From a virus: a stretch of 52,107 nucleotides of DNA. The stretch lies in the IMG/VR virus record IMGVR_UViG_3300029448_000059, positions 1 to 52,107 of that record; one strand, given 5' to 3'. The notes under the pieces were generated by a model. It searched no databases. It was not told the DNA's origin and was given only the letters and a program-made list of their open reading frames with translations. This document shows positions 32,684-50,435 of this stretch, piece after piece. The translations under genes and the position numbers were made by a program. Numbering within the stretch: position 1 is the stretch's first letter; the number at the start of each line of letters is the position of its first letter.

Positions 32684-32693
32684 CTATTTATTA
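32684..32693 (+). promoter_or_regulatory. Candidate late-type promoter box CTATTTATTA
   Basis: Exact decamer, 19 bp upstream of the ATG of the large Hint-tailed protein. Confidence 0.5.
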
Positions 32694-32712: not shown

Positions 32713-34599
32713 ATGAAAGGAACATTATTTTCGGCTGATTTTGTATTCGACTCTTCGAATAATGCGAGGTTATTAGAGATAAACACAGATACAACTTTAG
32801 TAAGATCTGCAATTAAAGACTATTTAGATTTTACCGATTTTGGTACTGTTTTATCTGATAGTGCACTAGATACTCTTCATATTATTTATAAACCTTTTCA
32901 TAATCACATAGTAGAGAAATTAACTACTTTTGTAAATGAAAACGTTCCTAATATTACTCAGATCGATTATCAGGAGGAGGAAAACTGTGCAATTTATTTA
33001 GGAGTAGAAGAAGATGCAGATAATAAGTTTATACTTAGAATGGCTTATGATGAATCAGCTATATTAGATTCAGTATATGCTAAATCAGAAGTAGAGTTAT
33101 ATAGTTTATTTAATACATATAATGACCTAGATTCTATTCCTCCAGCTTACCATTCATCTTCTGCACATGGTATAATTAATACTCTTTCCCAATCTTTTAA
33201 TGATCCTAATCTTCCTGACTTTGCTAAGAAAGTTGAAAACACTAGCGGTGCTACTATACAGTCTATAGGATTATGGAAAGTAGGTCTTCCGGAAACTGGT
33301 TCTGATTATAGATTTAATACTTTTATCGAAGAACAAAAACAAGATGATATAGTATTAACTAATTTTATTCCTAATTTATCTGGTTCTTATTGTACTTCAG
33401 TAAGATCTATGCAAATAGTATATGGGACTAATTTAGACTTATGTTTCTTAGGAGAGCATAAACAAACTGCTTTGTTTGATATACCTACTAATTTAACTAC
33501 TGGTAGTCTTCAAGATGATAAAAAAGTTTCACATATGGTAAATACTTATCATAAGTTTGAATTGACTACAAACTTTCCTAAGGGTAATCAAGGAGTAAGA
33601 AAAGATAGTAATATTATTAGTTCCTCAGGAGATTTAGTTAATATCTATACTGATAATACTGGATCTAATTTTCATTATAAATCATTTTTTATCTCTGGTT
33701 CTCCTGATACTGATGATGTAACTGAACTTAACGATTGGTATCATTCAGGGTCAACTTTTCCTTCTGGTTCATATATTACTTCTTCTAATATAGTTGTAAG
33801 AGATAATTATGATAATGTAAATGCTGATTTATATAAACTAGAATTAGATAATGGTGATATTTTCTACTTAGGAGGTTTATGTTTAGTCCCAACATTAGAT
33901 ACTGGTTCAAATGTAATTAAATGGATAACTACAAATGATATAAGAGTAGGTAATAGAGTATTTGATGATAACAATACTTCTCATTTAGTAGTTTCTAGTT
34001 CATTTCAAGTCTCTGATACATATGGAGATTTTGATACCGGACACCCTAACATGGAAGAAGTCGATACTTATATAGTAAAAGGTTCTAGTAATAGTTTATT
34101 AGTTCACAACCCTTATGGAGCTGGAAGAGGAGCATACTACGGTTTTTGTTTCATTGCAGGTACTGAGGTTGCTTTAGATGGAGGAGATTATAAAAATATT
34201 GAAGATATAGTAGTAGGAGATGTAGTTATTACCTATAACGAAGGTACAGGAAAGCAAGAAGCTAAGAAAGTATATGAGACATTATCACCAATTCATGATG
34301 ATATAGTTACTTACACATTATCAGATGGTAGCTCTGTAACTTCTACTTATGATCATCCTTACTATGTAGAAAGTTTAGAACTTAAATCTTCTAATCCAGA
34401 TAAAACCAACGAACTATACGATATTGACCAAGAAGTTAGTCAAATAGGACTTGGTGATGTTTTTATTAAATTAGATGGTACAAAATCAACTATAACAGGC
34501 ATTAACGCAGAACCATTAGAAGACACACAAACTTACTTATTAAGAGTAGAAGATAATCATAACTTCTATGCTAATAATATATTGGTTCATAATAAATAA
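32713..34599 (+). CDS. Large late-type protein with C-terminal Hint (intein-like) domain
   Basis: This 628-residue protein is probably a structural component. Residues 479-628 form a Hint domain: Cys479 in CFIAGTEVALDGG, VVGDVVITYNE, block B T-x-x-H in STYDHPYYV, and the terminal NFYANNILVHNK, with His626-Asn627 followed by one Lys. The +1 residue is Lys, not Cys/Ser/Thr, so full splicing is not expected; autocleavage at Cys479 or after Asn627 is. Residues 390-466 look like a shorter, degenerate repeat (Cys390, NDIRVGNRVF, DTGHP, LLVHN). The N-terminal part includes RLLEINTDT and FILRMAYDESAIL; its family is not named. Confidence 0.78.
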   Translation: MKGTLFSADFVFDSSNNARLLEINTDTTLVRSAIKDYLDFTDFGTVLSDSALDTLHIIYKPFHNHIVEKLTTFVNENVPNITQIDYQEEENCAIYLGVEEDADNKFILRMAYDESAILDSVYAKSEVELYSLFNTYNDLDSIPPAYHSSSAHGIINTLSQSFNDPNLPDFAKKVENTSGATIQSIGLWKVGLPETGSDYRFNTFIEEQKQDDIVLTNFIPNLSGSYCTSVRSMQIVYGTNLDLCFLGEHKQTALFDIPTNLTTGSLQDDKKVSHMVNTYHKFELTTNFPKGNQGVRKDSNIISSSGDLVNIYTDNTGSNFHYKSFFISGSPDTDDVTELNDWYHSGSTFPSGSYITSSNIVVRDNYDNVNADLYKLELDNGDIFYLGGLCLVPTLDTGSNVIKWITTNDIRVGNRVFDDNNTSHLVVSSSFQVSDTYGDFDTGHPNMEEVDTYIVKGSSNSLLVHNPYGAGRGAYYGFCFIAGTEVALDGGDYKNIEDIVVGDVVITYNEGTGKQEAKKVYETLSPIHDDIVTYTLSDGSSVTSTYDHPYYVESLELKSSNPDKTNELYDIDQEVSQIGLGDVFIKLDGTKSTITGINAEPLEDTQTYLLRVEDNHNFYANNILVHNK

Positions 34600-34742: not shown

Positions 34743-35240
34743 ATGGTGAAGGTTGTAGATAATTTTCTTTCTCAAGAAGATTGTAAGATATTAATAGAGT
34801 CTAACTCAACAGATTTAAAACCTCAACCTGAAGCTGCTTACGAAAGACGTTGTGTTTCTAAGTTTATAGAACTTCCTAATATAAAAGAAAGAGTAAGTAA
34901 GTTAGTTAGTGAAGTACGGAATAATCTACTGATAGATAATAAATTTGAATTAATTAAATACGTTCCACAAGATCATTTTCAATGGCATAATGATATTCAA
35001 TTAGGTAACCCTAAAGTTCATAAAATATCTACCGTTATACTTTTAAATAAAGATTTTAAAGGAGGAGAATTATTAATTAGAGAAAATTTAAAAGAATCTA
35101 CTGTTGATATAAAAACTGGTTCTTTAGTAATTTTCCCTTCTAAGTTAAAGCATAAAGTAAATAGAATAACTCAAGGAACGAGATATAGTCTTTGCTGCTG
35201 GTTTTACACAAATTCAGAAAATAAAGTTAACGTAATATGA
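34743..35240 (+). CDS. Fe(II)/2-oxoglutarate oxygenase
   Basis: This 165-residue protein has the HxD ligands in HFQWHNDIQLG, GGELLIRE as a jelly-roll strand pair, and the distal His and 2OG-binding Arg in LKHKVNRITQGTRYSL. It fits P4H/PKHD-type hydroxylases. It is the first of a run of three such genes interrupted by a sulfotransferase. Overlaps the next gene by four bases. Confidence 0.85.
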   Translation: MVKVVDNFLSQEDCKILIESNSTDLKPQPEAAYERRCVSKFIELPNIKERVSKLVSEVRNNLLIDNKFELIKYVPQDHFQWHNDIQLGNPKVHKISTVILLNKDFKGGELLIRENLKESTVDIKTGSLVIFPSKLKHKVNRITQGTRYSLCCWFYTNSENKVNVI

Positions 35241-35764
35241 AAAGCTGTTTGGTTATTGCCTCTCCTAGAAGCGGTAGTTCAAATTTAATGAGAAGTATTG
35301 CTAAGGCTAATAACCTTTTAAAATGTTTTGAACCTTTTGGCGATGTTATAGAGCAGCAACTTAGAATAGATAATTACTGTACTAAGGTTATAGGAAGAAG
35401 AAAACCAGTTGATTTTTGGGTAGAGCTAAGTGGTAAATTTGATAAAGTAGTTTTACAGTCCAGAAGAGATTCAATTAAAGCAGCTGAATCTCTCACTAAG
35501 TTATATTCTTCTAAAACTAGAAATCCTGATTTAAAATGGACTAGCTTAACTGAGGAAGAAAAGCTTAAACTTCCTATTGCTATAGATATTATTAATATAA
35601 GTGAAAAAGTTATAGAAGAACTATCGTTAAGACTTAATATAGATATAGATTACTATGAAGATATCTTTACTAATTATCATTTAAATGATACTAGTATTAA
35701 ATTAGATCTTAGTTTCTTAAATAAGTCTAGAAAATGTAAAATAGAAAAGTTCAATGCTATCTAA
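35237..35764 (+). CDS. Sulfotransferase-like protein
   Basis: This 175-residue protein has IASPRSGSSNLMRSI, the PAPS 5'-phosphosulfate loop, a conserved EPF, and VVLQSRRDSIKAAESL, the 3'-phosphate-binding motif (R......S). These are the hallmarks of Stf0/carbohydrate-type sulfotransferases. It is somewhat short (usual length over 200). It would transfer sulfate from PAPS to a sugar or tyrosine; the target is unknown. Located between two oxygenase genes with overlaps of 4 and 11 bp. Confidence 0.78.
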   Translation: MKSCLVIASPRSGSSNLMRSIAKANNLLKCFEPFGDVIEQQLRIDNYCTKVIGRRKPVDFWVELSGKFDKVVLQSRRDSIKAAESLTKLYSSKTRNPDLKWTSLTEEEKLKLPIAIDIINISEKVIEELSLRLNIDIDYYEDIFTNYHLNDTSIKLDLSFLNKSRKCKIEKFNAI

Positions 35765-36299
35765 AAATTATACTTTACAGGAGTTAGGTGAAATAGATAT
35801 AGCTCCTATGGTTGAAGAATTTAAAATCTTAACTGATAAAGATTGGGATTTTAATACCGAAAGACAGAAAACACCAGACTCAGCTCAGAAAAATACAAAA
35901 TTTATTCCTATAATTTATTACGGTAAAAATTATTATTTAGATAAATTTCAAGAAACTATTTATGTTGCTAAGTCTGCCATACAGGGAGTATTAGGAAAAA
36001 TAGATATAGGAAGAGCTATATTTACTGAACTACCAGCAGGAATGGTTATAGGTGCCCATAAAGATTCAGGAATATTTTTACAAACTCATACTAGAATACA
36101 CATACCTTTAATAAGTAATAATGAAGTAAGCTTTGGGGTCAAAGAAGGAAATGATTGGAGAACTCAATATTTAGAACCAGGTAAGTTTTATGCTCTTAAT
36201 AACTGTAAGACTTTTCATGCAGTACATAATAAATCTAATGTTAGTAGATATCATCTTATTGTAGACGTAAAAAAACAAGAAAATAGAGCTATTATCTGA
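35754..36299 (+). CDS. Aspartyl/asparaginyl beta-hydroxylase-like oxygenase
   Basis: This 181-residue protein has IGAHKDSG (HxD-type ligands), TRIHIPLISNNEVSFGV, GKFYALNNCKTFHAVHNKS and a closing SRYHLIVDV, in the order of the Asp/Asn beta-hydroxylase family. The distal His and Arg (HAVHN..VSRYHL) are present. It may hydroxylate a protein Asp/Asn or a small molecule. Overlaps the sulfotransferase by 11 bp. Confidence 0.82.
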   Translation: MLSKNYTLQELGEIDIAPMVEEFKILTDKDWDFNTERQKTPDSAQKNTKFIPIIYYGKNYYLDKFQETIYVAKSAIQGVLGKIDIGRAIFTELPAGMVIGAHKDSGIFLQTHTRIHIPLISNNEVSFGVKEGNDWRTQYLEPGKFYALNNCKTFHAVHNKSNVSRYHLIVDVKKQENRAII

Positions 36300-36310
36300 A
36301 ATTTTTTTCG

Positions 36311-36318
36311 TATATTAT
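36311..36318 (+). promoter_or_regulatory. Promoter -7 element TATATTAT
   Basis: Part of CTGAAATTTTTTTCGTATATTAT, matching the promoter family at CTGA and at the -7 box, but without TTG 20 bp upstream. It precedes the small gene at 36336. Confidence 0.6.
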
Positions 36319-36335
36319 AGTATAAATAAAATACT

Positions 36336-36524
36336 ATGAACGAACTATATTACATTGCCGAATCAAGAATGAATTCGAGAATAGCGTCTACTCTAGTAGA
36401 TGGTTTTCCTATAACAGTAGAAGGAATAGTCTATGAAAGACTGTTTAAGAGACCTTCTTATCGTAATCAGAAACAAAGATTAGTTAATGCTGATCAAACT
36501 GAAAGAATAATTTTATTTAATTAA
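36336..36524 (+). CDS. Small hypothetical protein
   Basis: This 62-residue protein (MNELYYIAESRMNSRIASTL...) is mixed and basic. It overlaps the next ATG by one base, so it probably heads a two-gene unit with the oxygenase at 36524. No family recognised. Confidence 0.65.
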   Translation: MNELYYIAESRMNSRIASTLVDGFPITVEGIVYERLFKRPSYRNQKQRLVNADQTERIILFN

Positions 36525-37153
36525 TGTTCAAACCTTTAAATCAGATTTGTTATTCTGAGCATCAGTTAGCTTTAGATCACGATAAAATTTTATCTGAAGT
36601 CATGATGGCAAAGATTAAGGATGATGTTCCTGATAGTGAAGAAAATTATTCTAACTATCCTATCAATCATACTTTTTTTAAGGATAGCAATATTTATCCT
36701 GAAACAGCTGATAAAGTATTTAATGCTATTCTCAAAGAATTAAGTATAATATTTGAAGCAGATGATTTATGGGTTATAGATGATAAAGAGATATGGGGAC
36801 ATATAGTAGAACCTGGTCAACAAACTATAGTTCATAATCATGTATGTGGAGCTTTAAAAGAAATTAGTTTATCTTTTGCTTACTATCCTAATCATCCAAC
36901 TGATTCAGGAGGAATAGTATTTCAAACTCAGATTAATACTAATGTATACGAAGCTTCAATACAACCTAGAAAAGGTTTAGCTATTATATTTGATGCTTCA
37001 ATGTTTCATTATACTCCTATTAATAATAGTAAGTATACTAGAGTATCAGTATCAGGTAACTTAGTAGCAACGGATAAAATGCTTAATCTATTAAATGAAG
37101 ATTATGAATGCACTAGTCCTTACTGGAAATATTCGGGAAAAACTAACGTATAA
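36524..37153 (+). CDS. Putative 2OG-Fe(II) oxygenase (2OG-FeII_Oxy_5-like)
   Basis: This 209-residue protein has WGHIVEPGQQTIVHNHVCGALKE..LSFAYYPNHP, GGIVFQ, then GLAIIFDASMFHYTPINNSKYTRVSVSGNL. This follows the H.H......SgvyY, F.p...H and R.s...n layout of the 2OG-FeII_Oxy_5 group. The first pair is HNH rather than HxD, so one iron ligand is uncertain. It is the fourth oxygenase-like gene in the window. Confidence 0.68.
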   Translation: MFKPLNQICYSEHQLALDHDKILSEVMMAKIKDDVPDSEENYSNYPINHTFFKDSNIYPETADKVFNAILKELSIIFEADDLWVIDDKEIWGHIVEPGQQTIVHNHVCGALKEISLSFAYYPNHPTDSGGIVFQTQINTNVYEASIQPRKGLAIIFDASMFHYTPINNSKYTRVSVSGNLVATDKMLNLLNEDYECTSPYWKYSGKTNV

Positions 37154-40193: not shown

Positions 40194-40410
40194 AGAAGCT
40201 TTTGATAAAGCTGTAAAGGTTATAAATTCTTGTGAGAATAGTTATCATACTAAAGCAGCAAGAAAATATATAAATTTATTTTTTAATATCTACTGCCCTA
40301 CACCCAAAGTTAAATCAGGGTTTAGAGTATTTAGTCCTCCACAATATATCGCAGACCAATACAATATATTATTACATAATTTAGGAGTTATAGAAAGACA
40401 ATTAGATTAA
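40177..40410 (+). CDS. Hypothetical protein upstream of gcvP
   Basis: This 77-residue basic helical protein (start MRAIPKEAFDKAVKVI) overlaps gcvP by one base (TAATG), so gcvP is probably translationally coupled to it. An in-frame ATG at 40162 would add five residues. No family recognised. Confidence 0.65.
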   Translation: MRAIPKEAFDKAVKVINSCENSYHTKAARKYINLFFNIYCPTPKVKSGFRVFSPPQYIADQYNILLHNLGVIERQLD

Positions 40411-43202
40411 TGCATCAGGAAAATTTTTTAACTCGTCACTTAGGACCAAGGAAAAAAGAAATAAATAAAATGTTAAAAGTTATCGGTGTCTCATCGGTAA
40501 GAGAACTTTTATCAGAAACTATTCCGGAAGAAATTAGATTAAAAAACAAACTTGAATCTAATAATCCATTAAGTGAGTATCAATTCCTTAATCATGTACA
40601 ATCTTTATCTAATAGAAATAAAGTATTTGATACTTATATAGGATTAGGATATCATCCTACAATTACTCCTCCAGTAATTCAAAGAAATATATTAGAGAAC
40701 CCTGGATGGTATACAGCTTATACTCCATATCAGGCAGAGATAGCTCAAGGAAGACTAGAAGCTTTATTTAATTTCCAGACTATGATTACTGATCTAACTG
40801 GGATGGAGTTATCCAATGCTTCTCTTCTCGATGAAAGTACTGCAGCAGCAGAAGCAATGTCGATGATTTTTTCTCTTAGAACTAGAGATCAAAAGAAAGT
40901 TAATGCTAATAAGTTATTTGTTAGTGATCAAATATTTCCTCAAACTTTAGAAGTACTTAATACTAGAGCTGCTCCAATAGGAATAGAATTAGTAATAGGT
41001 AATGAAGATACTATATCTTATGATGATACTTACTTTGGAGCGATATTTCAATACCCTGGTAAGCATGGAAAAGTCAATTTACTTTCAGATCATATATTAA
41101 AAGCTAAACAAAGTAATTTAAAAACTATAGTAGCCGCTGATCTTTTATCTTTAACTATTTTAGAAGCTCCTGGTAAATATGATGTAGATGTAGTAGTTGG
41201 TACAACTCAAAGATTTGGTATCCCATTAGGTTATGGAGGTCCTCATGCAGCCTATTTTGCTACTAAGCAAGATTATAAGAGAAGCATACCCGGTAGAATT
41301 ATAGGTCAGACTATTGACTTAGATGGTAATCCAGCTTTAAGAATGGCATTACAAACAAGAGAGCAACATATTAAGAGAGACAGAGCCACATCAAATATAT
41401 GTACTGCACAAGTTCTTTTAGCCGTAATGGCAGGGATGTATGCAGTTTATCACGGTCCAAAAGGATTACAAAATATAGCATTAAGAATACATAACTATGC
41501 AAACTATATAGAAGGTAGATTATTAAAATTAGGATATGAAAATGTAAATAGATATTATTTTGATACTCTTAAAATAAGATGTAATGCTGAAGAAGTTATT
41601 AGTACAGCTGAAATGATAGGAGTAAATTTACTCTATATTGATAAAGACCATGTAGGAATATCTATAAATGAAACTATAGATGAAGAAGCTGAAGATTTAA
41701 TTATTAAAGCATTCGAAAACTCTCGTCCTGAATATACATTAGATACTAATCATAAAGAATTATTATCAAGGCTTCCTCAATTAGTTAGAGAAACTCCTTT
41801 TATGACTCATAAAGTATTTAACTCTTATCATTCAGAGACAGCTTTGATGAGATATATCAAAAGTTTAGAAAGAAAAGATTTAGCTTTAAATCATTCTATG
41901 ATTAGTTTAGGTTCTTGTACTATGAAGCTAAATGCAGCAGCAGAGATGTTACCTTTAAGCTGGCCTCAATGGAATAGTATTCATCCTTTTGCTCCTAGAT
42001 ACCAAGCATTAGGATACATGCAAATGTTAGAAGAGTTAGAAATAGAACTAAATAAAGTAACTGGCTTTTATGCAACCTCTTTACAACCTAACTCTGGTGC
42101 TCAAGGAGAATATTCCGGTCTAATGGTTATTAGGTCTTATCATAAGTCTAACGATCAAGAACATCGTAACATATGTTTAATCCCTTCCTCTGCTCACGGT
42201 ACTAATCCAGCTTCTGCAGTTATGGCTGGTATGAAAGTAATAGTGGTTAAGACGGATGAATTAGGTAATATAGATATATTAGATTTAACTGATAAAGCAG
42301 AAAAGTATAAAGATAATCTAGCTGCCTTAATGATAACTTATCCATCAACTCATGGAGTATTTGAATCTAATATTAAAACTATTACAGATAAGATTCATGA
42401 ATGTGGAGGTCAAGTATATATGGATGGAGCTAATATGAATGCTCAAGTAGGTTTAACTAGCCCTGCTTCAATAGGAGCAGATGTATGTCACTTAAACCTT
42501 CATAAAACATTTGCTATTCCTCATGGAGGAGGAGGTCCTGGAGTTGGACCAATTTGTGTAGCAGAGCATCTTGCAGAGTTTCTACCTAATTTAAAAGTAT
42601 CAGCAGCACCTTATGGTTCTTCTTTAGCTTGTATTATATCATATGGTTATATAAAGATGCTAGGAGGAGATGGATTAACTACAGCAACAGAGATAGCTAT
42701 TCTAAATGCTAACTATATTAAAAAGAGATTAGAAAATAATTATAGTATTTTATATACTGGAGTCAAAGGAAGATCTGCTCATGAGTTAATTATAGATTGC
42801 AGACCATTTAAAGATAATAATATAGAAGTAGTTGATATAGCTAAACGTCTAATTGATTATGGCTTTCATGCTCCAACAGTATCATTTCCGGTACCAGGTA
42901 CTATGATGATAGAACCAACAGAGAGTGAGAACTTAGAAGAGATAGATAGATTCTGTGATGCTATGATTGGCATTAGAGATGAGATAAGTAATAGTAATAT
43001 AGAGATACTAAAGAATGCTCCTCATACATTAGAAATGGTTACTTCAGATGAATGGTCTTATCCTTATTCAAGACAAGAGGCAGCTTATCCTTTACCGTTT
43101 GTTAAACATAATAAATTATGGCCGTCGGTAAGAAGAGTTGATGAAGCGTACGGAGATAGAAACTTAGTATGCAGCTGCAACCCTATAGAGGATTATAAAT
43201 AA
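40410..43202 (+). CDS. gcvP: Glycine dehydrogenase (decarboxylating), P-protein
   Basis: This 930-residue protein is full length compared with bacterial GcvP (about 950). It starts FLTRHLGPRKKEINKMLKVIG and ends DRNLVCSCNPIEDYK as family members do. Diagnostic motifs: YTPYQAEIAQGRLEALFNFQ, LGSCTMKLNAAAEM, PNSGAQGEYSGL, SSAHGTNPASA and HLNLHKTFAIPHGGGGPGVGP with the PLP lysine at K699. It decarboxylates glycine and passes the aminomethyl group to lipoylated H-protein. No T-, H- or L-protein genes are in the window. Codon use is as AT-rich as its neighbours, so it is well adapted to the phage. Confidence 0.96.
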   Translation: MHQENFLTRHLGPRKKEINKMLKVIGVSSVRELLSETIPEEIRLKNKLESNNPLSEYQFLNHVQSLSNRNKVFDTYIGLGYHPTITPPVIQRNILENPGWYTAYTPYQAEIAQGRLEALFNFQTMITDLTGMELSNASLLDESTAAAEAMSMIFSLRTRDQKKVNANKLFVSDQIFPQTLEVLNTRAAPIGIELVIGNEDTISYDDTYFGAIFQYPGKHGKVNLLSDHILKAKQSNLKTIVAADLLSLTILEAPGKYDVDVVVGTTQRFGIPLGYGGPHAAYFATKQDYKRSIPGRIIGQTIDLDGNPALRMALQTREQHIKRDRATSNICTAQVLLAVMAGMYAVYHGPKGLQNIALRIHNYANYIEGRLLKLGYENVNRYYFDTLKIRCNAEEVISTAEMIGVNLLYIDKDHVGISINETIDEEAEDLIIKAFENSRPEYTLDTNHKELLSRLPQLVRETPFMTHKVFNSYHSETALMRYIKSLERKDLALNHSMISLGSCTMKLNAAAEMLPLSWPQWNSIHPFAPRYQALGYMQMLEELEIELNKVTGFYATSLQPNSGAQGEYSGLMVIRSYHKSNDQEHRNICLIPSSAHGTNPASAVMAGMKVIVVKTDELGNIDILDLTDKAEKYKDNLAALMITYPSTHGVFESNIKTITDKIHECGGQVYMDGANMNAQVGLTSPASIGADVCHLNLHKTFAIPHGGGGPGVGPICVAEHLAEFLPNLKVSAAPYGSSLACIISYGYIKMLGGDGLTTATEIAILNANYIKKRLENNYSILYTGVKGRSAHELIIDCRPFKDNNIEVVDIAKRLIDYGFHAPTVSFPVPGTMMIEPTESENLEEIDRFCDAMIGIRDEISNSNIEILKNAPHTLEMVTSDEWSYPYSRQEAAYPLPFVKHNKLWPSVRRVDEAYGDRNLVCSCNPIEDYK

Positions 43203-49411: not shown

Positions 49412-49732
49412 ATGACAATAAATCCAGTACTTTTTTCCGGAATAGTTGTAGTTTTAGTTGCTTTATTAATTATTCTAGTTTATATTATAAATAACCTTCT
49501 TAAAAAGGTAGAGTTATACGAAGATATCATAGAAGATCAAACGAAATATCTAAATAAACTATCTACTACAGTTAAAGAAGGTGATAAACACCTTAAAACA
49601 CTTGACGAACGAGGGGTCTTTCAGTCAGACGACGAAATAGGTGAATTTTTTAACCAATTGAAAGAAGTTCAATCAGAGCTTAATAAATTTAAGCTACCCC
49701 TAAACTATGGCAAGGAAGAAATCCAAAGCTAA
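49412..49732 (+). CDS. Membrane-anchored coiled-coil protein
   Basis: This 106-residue protein has one N-terminal transmembrane helix (residues 7-28, SGIVVVLVALLIILVYII) followed by a charged coiled coil. It abuts the HD gene stop and overlaps the sigma gene by 26 bp. It could tether a complex to the membrane; no family recognised. Confidence 0.68.
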   Translation: MTINPVLFSGIVVVLVALLIILVYIINNLLKKVELYEDIIEDQTKYLNKLSTTVKEGDKHLKTLDERGVFQSDDEIGEFFNQLKEVQSELNKFKLPLNYGKEEIQS

Positions 49733-50435
49733 TTACTTTACAGCGGAGACCGAAGAGTACATTAAGAAATACAATATATCAACAGACATAGAATACAGAA
49801 ATAAGATATTTACTGATCATATTTACTATCCTTTCTATAAACTTGTTGAAAATATCATTCACACCTTTAAGTTTTACTACACAGATGTCGAACAAATCGA
49901 AGATCTTAAGCATGAAGTAGTAACTGTTCTATTAGAAGAGAAGATAATGAAGTTTGATCCTACTAATGGAGCAAAAGCATACTCTTACTTCGGCACAATA
50001 GTGAAAAGGTGGTTGATAAACTATAACAACAAGAACTACAAAAAACTTCTACAGAACGAATCTACCCCAGACAGCTTTGCACTAAACGTTCCCTCCTATA
50101 TGATAGTAGGAGATCCAGAATTAGACTATGAAGGAGCTATTTCCCTCGGAACCTATATAGACATATGGGTAAGCCAGACTTATGTTAAACTTGACGAACT
50201 ATTTTTAAAAGATTCCGAAAAGAGAATCGCAGATGCAATATTGACTATCTTTAAAAAAAGAAGTGACTTAGAAATATTTAAGAAAAAAGCACTTTACATT
50301 TACATTAGAGAGATGACGGACTGTGAAACTCCTCAACTTACTAGAGTAATATCAACACTTAAGAAGAATTTTTACGAAGGGTATTTAGAATTATACGATA
50401 GAGGAGTATTAGTGCCTAACTTAAATAATAAGTAA
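49707..50435 (+). CDS. T4 gp55-like late sigma factor
   Basis: This 242-residue protein has EDLKHEVVTVLLEEKIMKFD, AYSYFGTIVKRWLINYNNKNYKK as the sigma region-2-like core (helix with aromatic and basic residues), and a helical C-terminal half. This matches the gp55 family of T4-like phages, which redirects host RNA polymerase to late promoters together with the sliding clamp. It may recognise the CTATTTATTA box found upstream of late-looking genes here. Overlaps the upstream gene by 26 bp. Confidence 0.75.
   Translation: MARKKSKANYFTAETEEYIKKYNISTDIEYRNKIFTDHIYYPFYKLVENIIHTFKFYYTDVEQIEDLKHEVVTVLLEEKIMKFDPTNGAKAYSYFGTIVKRWLINYNNKNYKKLLQNESTPDSFALNVPSYMIVGDPELDYEGAISLGTYIDIWVSQTYVKLDELFLKDSEKRIADAILTIFKKRSDLEIFKKKALYIYIREMTDCETPQLTRVISTLKKNFYEGYLELYDRGVLVPNLNNK

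Follow-up and report, generated by a model that had tools for sequence, protein, structure and literature searches.

Most studies of intein-like domains treat them as inserts or as devices for toxin release. BIL domains without a nucleophile at the residue following the terminal Asn (+1) give mostly cleaved products (PMC7664689), and the BIL2 domain attaches its N-terminal partner to the epsilon-amine of a lysine through a K(epsilon-NH2) isopeptide bond (PMC8616854).

Architecture of the 628-aa phage protein

We analyzed an IMG/VR virus record of 52,107 bases with 31% G+C (hereafter, the window). An ORF at 32713-34599 on the plus strand codes for a protein of 628 aa. The source is an uncultured, T4-like phage. 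The relatives lie on contigs larger than the window, and 5 of 20 such contigs carry a gp23-type major capsid gene, so at least those relatives are T4-like phages.

Judging from the sequence and from structural models, the protein is probably a self-processing fusion, in which an ATP-grasp ligase-like domain is followed by a degenerate Hint domain (Hint0) and by an exchangeable terminal Hint of BIL type that ends at Lys628. Hint and BIL domains are known; the architecture combining an ATP-grasp-like domain, Hint0, and terminal Hints is new. A literature search, covering mostly non-subscription papers, found no description of an ATP-grasp/Hint fusion. The protein was divided into the following parts, all on the plus strand.

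32713..33582 (+): N-terminal domain (N-domain), residues 1-290, ATP-grasp ligase-like (AF2 model, PDB fold matches, hhalign)
33592..34110 (+): Hint0, residues 294-466, degenerate Hint with Gly at the Cys1 position and the final His465-Asn466 kept (hhalign, alignment)
34111..34146 (+): linker PYGAGRGAYYGF, residues 467-478, joining Hint0 to the terminal Hint (sequence)
34147..34593 (+): terminal Hint, Cys479-Asn627, catalytic residues intact (Pfam, Foldseek, conservation)
34594..34596 (+): Lys628, the sole residue after the terminal Asn, followed by the stop codon (sequence)

Relatives carry tandem Hint arrays

A conserved-motif scan of IMG/VR gave 101 N-domain loci, of which 80 were kept. Parsing of these and further loci yielded 56 distinct proteins; all family counts refer to distinct sequences, not to independent events. 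In the 56 relatives, Hint0 is followed by one to three Cys-bearing Hints in tandem (one in 28 proteins, two in 23, and three in 5; L103, counted as having one, probably has two). These Hints are mostly 134-175 residues long, and the linker between Hint0 and the Hint behind it varies from 0 to about 13 residues. The initial annotation had missed the ATP-grasp-like N-domain, the Cys-less Hint0, and the tandem swappable arrays of the relatives. At two loci, L101 and L114, a second, separate Hint-cluster ORF (166 and 161 aa) was observed downstream of the main gene.

A search of 84,980 prokaryotic genomes for the N-domain gave 9 pattern matches and no confirmed relative, and no N-domain match was found among 50,697 phage records with two divergent members as queries. 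When cultured phages were searched with the window protein, the only matches were those reaching the Hint part. In close pairs without a swap, dN was far below dS in the N-domain, Hint0, and the Hints; all three are under purifying selection.

The terminal Hint keeps its catalytic residues

The initial annotation had placed a Hint domain at the C terminus, and both profile and fold searches agreed. In a Pfam search, PT-HINT (PF07591) matched the C-terminal 150 residues above the curated cut-off (E=1.9e-10). In Foldseek, the AlphaFold model of the terminal Hint matched the Hint domain of BIL2 from Tetrahymena BUBL1 (6y75; E=5e-12, target TM 0.85), which was the best solved match, and the C. thermocellum BIL domain 2lwy was also matched. 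The residues pointed out earlier are all in place: Cys479 forms block A, T545-Y-D-H548 forms the block-B TxxH, and the chain ends in V625-H626-N627-K628-stop, with one residue after Asn. A Pfam AXH match that overlaps with the Hint is probably a cross-match. The Hedgehog Hog domain, which has a sterol-recognition region behind the Hint and no C-terminal Asn cleavage, was rejected: the window protein has Asn627 and stops after a single further residue.

We compared 89 Cys-bearing Hints of the family, whose mean pairwise identity is 37%. The TxxH block retained its Thr in 81 Hints and its His in 88, and 82 kept HN at the end; Cys1 was present in 89/89, but the Hints had been delimited by a Cys-containing pattern. 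The conservation of catalytic residues across these Hints is far from chance. The Hints might alternatively be structural or binding modules that are no longer reactive, with the terminal exchange described below reflecting selection on the surface. Cys1 is gone from Hint0 in every member, and HN from one class of Hint, yet these domains are retained, and the cassette exchange of the terminal Hint also agrees with such a role. The maintenance of TxxH and HN in the great majority of Hints at this level of divergence argues against it, and we consider it unlikely.

The terminal Hint shares these features with A-type BIL domains: the Hint fold, a block A Cys1, a block B TxxH, a C-terminal His-Asn (H626-N627-K628) with no Cys, Ser, or Thr at +1 family-wide, and a position within a variable region of the protein (the terminal cassette swapped between L140 and L150).

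Lysine follows the final Asn

The ends of the 56 proteins were HN-K in 40, HN-KV in 3, HN-KK in 2, and HN-R with Lys further on in 3; a divergent Hint without HN (SGLGDN type) terminates the other 8, which means that not every member would undergo C-terminal cleavage at its last Hint. This divergent C-terminal Hint, with HN replaced by SG, was seen in L103, L127, L132, L134, L136, L139, L151, and L153, and the eight C termini bear a conserved tail with an RQ motif. The 48 HN-ending proteins have one to seven residues after the terminal Asn. The +1 residue is Lys in 45 of them and Arg in the other three, and all 48 have Lys somewhere in the tail; Lys accounts for 5.3% of residues. At internal Hints, +1 is mostly Arg, with Lys or aromatic residues the next commonest. 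In two DNA-pattern scans of IMG/VR, Hints with exactly one residue after HN all belonged to this family, and that residue was always Lys (two further stretches were TGG codons taken by the stop pattern). No feature of the family's C termini is more consistent than Lys at +1.

In the proposed mechanism, an N-S acyl shift at Cys479 would convert the Phe478-Cys479 bond into a thioester, and cyclisation of Asn627 would free Lys628. Loss of the thioester to water or to an amine would release the ATP-grasp-Hint0 part from the terminal Hint. Classical splicing is not expected because there is no Cys, Ser, or Thr at +1. The most likely reading of the sequence and the model is thus a BIL-type autoprocessing cassette that would cleave at Cys479 and after Asn627 without classical splicing, since BIL domains without a +1 nucleophile mainly cleave (PMC7664689). 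It had been suggested before that cleavage or attachment, as in BIL-type domains, is likelier than classical splicing, and this view is supported family-wide, as none of the Cys-bearing Hints has Cys, Ser, or Thr at +1.

The main rival is an amine-conjugating version, in which the Cys479 thioester would be passed either to the epsilon-amine of Lys628 itself or to a partner's lysine or other amine. With Lys628 as the acceptor, the outcome would be a splicing-like capping of the front part by one Lys. Such a hand-over to an amine is plausible because BIL2, the closest solved domain, makes a Lys isopeptide (PMC8616854). For the same reason, the earlier statement that Lys at +1 cannot act as a splicing nucleophile was too strong. 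Amine conjugation would also account for the prevalence of Lys at +1 and in the tail over several divergent Hint types, which is otherwise unexplained, and for the invariant Lys in the IMG/VR Hints with a single residue after HN. The acceptor is, however, putative, and internal Hints have mostly Arg, not Lys, at +1. We regard amine conjugation as possible, but tentatively so.

The short tail also bears on two other readings. PT-HINT is the best Pfam family, and the swapping of the terminal cassette recalls polymorphic systems, as would be expected for a polymorphic-toxin pretoxin Hint releasing a C-terminal toxin, but the few residues after the terminal Asn of HN-ending members leave nothing to release. 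The stop codon one residue after Asn refutes the toxin-releasing PT-HINT reading for the window protein, and its probability is very small. A degenerate or mobile intein inserted in the gene is also very improbable. The Hint fold is common to inteins, but the Hints of this family are C-terminal and in tandem, with no C-extein, no room for a homing endonuclease, and never Cys, Ser, or Thr at +1. None of the 56 relatives combined this N-domain with an intact C-extein behind the Hint. In place of a C-extein with a +1 nucleophile, only Lys628 follows, and the same holds family-wide; in place of an in-frame insert inside a conserved host protein, Hints occupied the terminal position in 56/56 relatives.

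Hint0 has lost the N-terminal half of its chemistry

Hint0 aligned with the Hint alignment in hhalign (E=8e-9, probability 96%), with the ends aligned at HN; profile comparison of the N-domain with the Cys-bearing Hints gave no alignment. Across the 56 relatives, mean identity of Hint0 is only 31%. Asn466 was present in all 56 and His465 in 53, and the Cys1 position was Gly in 54, indicating that the N-terminal reaction has been lost. The invariance of Asn at this level of identity suggests continued selection, either for its cyclisation at the C-terminal end or for a role in the structure. Hint0 might cut behind Asn466 through the same Asn cyclisation as proposed for the terminal Hint. In some members, HN of Hint0 abuts the next Cys; Asn cleavage by Hint0 and the acyl shift at that Cys would then strike the same bond, so the two may not have separate roles.

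The terminal Hint is exchanged as a cassette

L140 and L150 are 98% identical in the N-domain and 100% identical in Hint0, but only 43% identical in the terminal Hint. Their DNA sequences part at the Cys1 codon and match again at TTAGTTCACAATAAATAA (LVHNK-stop), and the flanks are 91-93% identical. Near-identical phages thus differ by an exact swap of the last Hint, a cassette that runs from its Cys codon to the stop. The N-domain of the window protein was closest to L042 (73%), while its Hint was closest to one of L043 (58%), indicating that terminal Hint swaps are recurrent. The LVHNK end could instead persist as the homology border of the swap, a point against amine conjugation.

A broader possibility, which we consider rather unlikely, is an ATP-independent phage system for protein conjugation. 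Hint cassettes would load the front part as a thioester and join it by an isopeptide bond to the tail Lys or to an amine of a partner, and would be swapped to change partner or to evade the host.

The N-terminal domain resembles ATP-grasp ligases

The AF2 model of residues 1-290, built with 49 relatives, had a pLDDT of 87.6. It gave ten PDB fold matches at E<=1e-3 (E=2e-7 to 4e-4; the next match, 0.18), namely YjfC, YgiC, glutathione, homoglutathione, and trypanothione synthetases, and one glutathione-synthetase-like effector. The TM-scores were modest (0.35-0.44 by query length), indicating that the domain arrangement differs from that of the ATP-grasp matches. The motif SADFVxDxxxxxRLLEINTDT sits at the extreme N terminus. 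In hhalign with YgiC/YjfC, ADFVxDxxxxxRLLEINTDT was aligned with a 20-residue YgiC segment (E=7e-5, probability 63%). The metal motif is thus aligned with YgiC, and invariant Lys residues are present in the domain. By eye, the KPxxSREG loop of YgiC appears to have no clear counterpart, which makes catalysis uncertain.

For Pfam PF03738 (GSP_synth), no match was obtained in the window, and 1 of 49 members matched below the cut-off at E=0.039. The N-domain had no significant match to PDB by sequence, and a fold search of the viral structure library gave no match at E<=1e-3. Residues 1-290, as modeled, look like a ligase of the glutathione-synthetase/YgiC ATP-grasp type, whose ligase activity is uncertain.

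Upstream motif and neighbouring genes

The Hint gene is preceded by a promoter-like motif and followed by oxygenase genes.

32685..32691 (+): promoter-like motif TATTTAT, about 28 nt before the start codon (upstream motif count)
34743..35240 (+): 2OG-Fe(II) oxygenase adjoining the Hint gene (PF13640, E=1e-13)
35754..36299 (+): aspartyl/asparaginyl beta-hydroxylase-like gene (PF05118, E=8e-10)
36524..37153 (+): second 2OG-Fe(II) oxygenase (PF13759, E=1.5e-7; phrog_81, E=2.5e-19)

TATTTAT was found within 70 nt upstream of 52 of 57 Hint genes and of 80 of 906 other ORFs. It also precedes a head-tail adaptor family gene in one relative and an apparent counterpart in another; it does not precede gp23. 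The motif is a putative promoter, and the Hint gene likely has its own transcription unit. The protein had been called late-type. The sharing of TATTTAT with the head-tail adaptor gene weakly supports this, and late expression is possible. The T4 late promoter core TATAAATA was found upstream of none of 55 Hint genes. We observed that TATTTATA, at 32685 and upstream of the relatives, is the reverse complement of TATAAATA; it may serve phages of this group as a promoter element. At 49707-50435 (+), an ORF resembles the T4 gp55-type late sigma factor by eye, with no PHROG match.

The region from 34743 to 37153 (+), directly after the Hint gene, holds three oxygenase-type genes and an ORF that looks sulfotransferase-like by eye. 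About 6 kb downstream, at 40410-43202 (+), the phage carries what looks like an intact gene for glycine dehydrogenase (the P-protein of glycine cleavage; PF02347, E=2e-178). A gene of the 2OG-Fe(II) oxygenase family is near the Hint gene in 53 of 55 relatives, a raw count in phages where such oxygenases are common, and the next gene is a 2OG oxygenase in 37 of 55. Radical SAM and carbamoyltransferase genes also recur near the Hint genes of relatives.

These neighbours bear on the proposal that the protein is a virion protein maturing by self-cleavage, as the initial annotation had assumed. The TATTTAT motif, common to the head-tail adaptor operon, is compatible with late expression of such a protein. 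However, the N-domain is like ATP-grasp ligases, no match to a structural-protein family or fold was obtained, and the gene heads a run of genes for 2OG-Fe(II) oxygenases and other enzymes; in relatives, radical SAM and carbamoyltransferase genes accompany it. We consider a virion role quite improbable.

Clusters of carbamoyltransferase and 2OG dioxygenase genes in jumbo cyanophages were proposed to serve secondary metabolite synthesis or polysaccharide decoration (PMC7824862). The ATP-grasp enzyme of fungal E-64 synthesis, which has YgiC and YjfC among its closest structures, acts together with an Fe(II)/ketoglutarate oxygenase (PMC12568646). For the Hint neighbourhood, both would be analogies only.

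Comparison with known systems

The sequence features and models together suggest a protein made to sever its own N-terminal part and perhaps to join that part chemically to another molecule. In these large T4-like phages, the Hints form exchangeable tandem tips on a protein that resembles an enzyme; they stand behind Hint0, which lost only half its chemistry, and a nearly invariant Lys follows the last Asn. Should the Hints prove active, the phage would encode a protein able to activate its own carboxyl terminus. With this protein, the question whether Hints carry out conjugation in prokaryotic viruses, as BIL2 does in ciliates, becomes directly testable.

BIL2 of the BUBL1 polyubiquitin-like locus (6y75/6tmm; PMC8616854) is the closest solved fold. 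Like the terminal Hint, it has Cys1 and HN but no usual +1 nucleophile, and in both a lysine is implicated as the acceptor. BIL2 lies between ubiquitin-like domains, whereas the phage Hint follows an ATP-grasp-like domain and a Cys-less Hint, with only Lys after it. A-type BIL domains (Amitai 2003; Dassa 2004, as cited in PMC7765530) share with the phage Hint a His-Asn end without a +1 nucleophile and a location in hypervariable protein parts. Unlike them, the phage Hints are in tandem at the extreme C terminus, with almost nothing after Asn. The PT-HINT (PF07591) pretoxin Hints are likewise exchangeable C-terminal cassettes, but the phage protein has no toxin.

YgiC/YjfC peptide-spermidine ligases and eukaryotic-type glutathione synthetases match the N-domain in fold, and the metal-binding motif of YgiC is on the N-terminal side as in the phage domain; identity is, however, about 10%, and Pfam does not detect the relationship. 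The jumbo cyanophage clusters of carbamoyltransferase and 2OG-dioxygenase genes contain neighbour enzymes similar to those around many of the Hint-gene relatives, and the accessible part of that report (PMC7824862) does not mention a Hint/ATP-grasp fusion.
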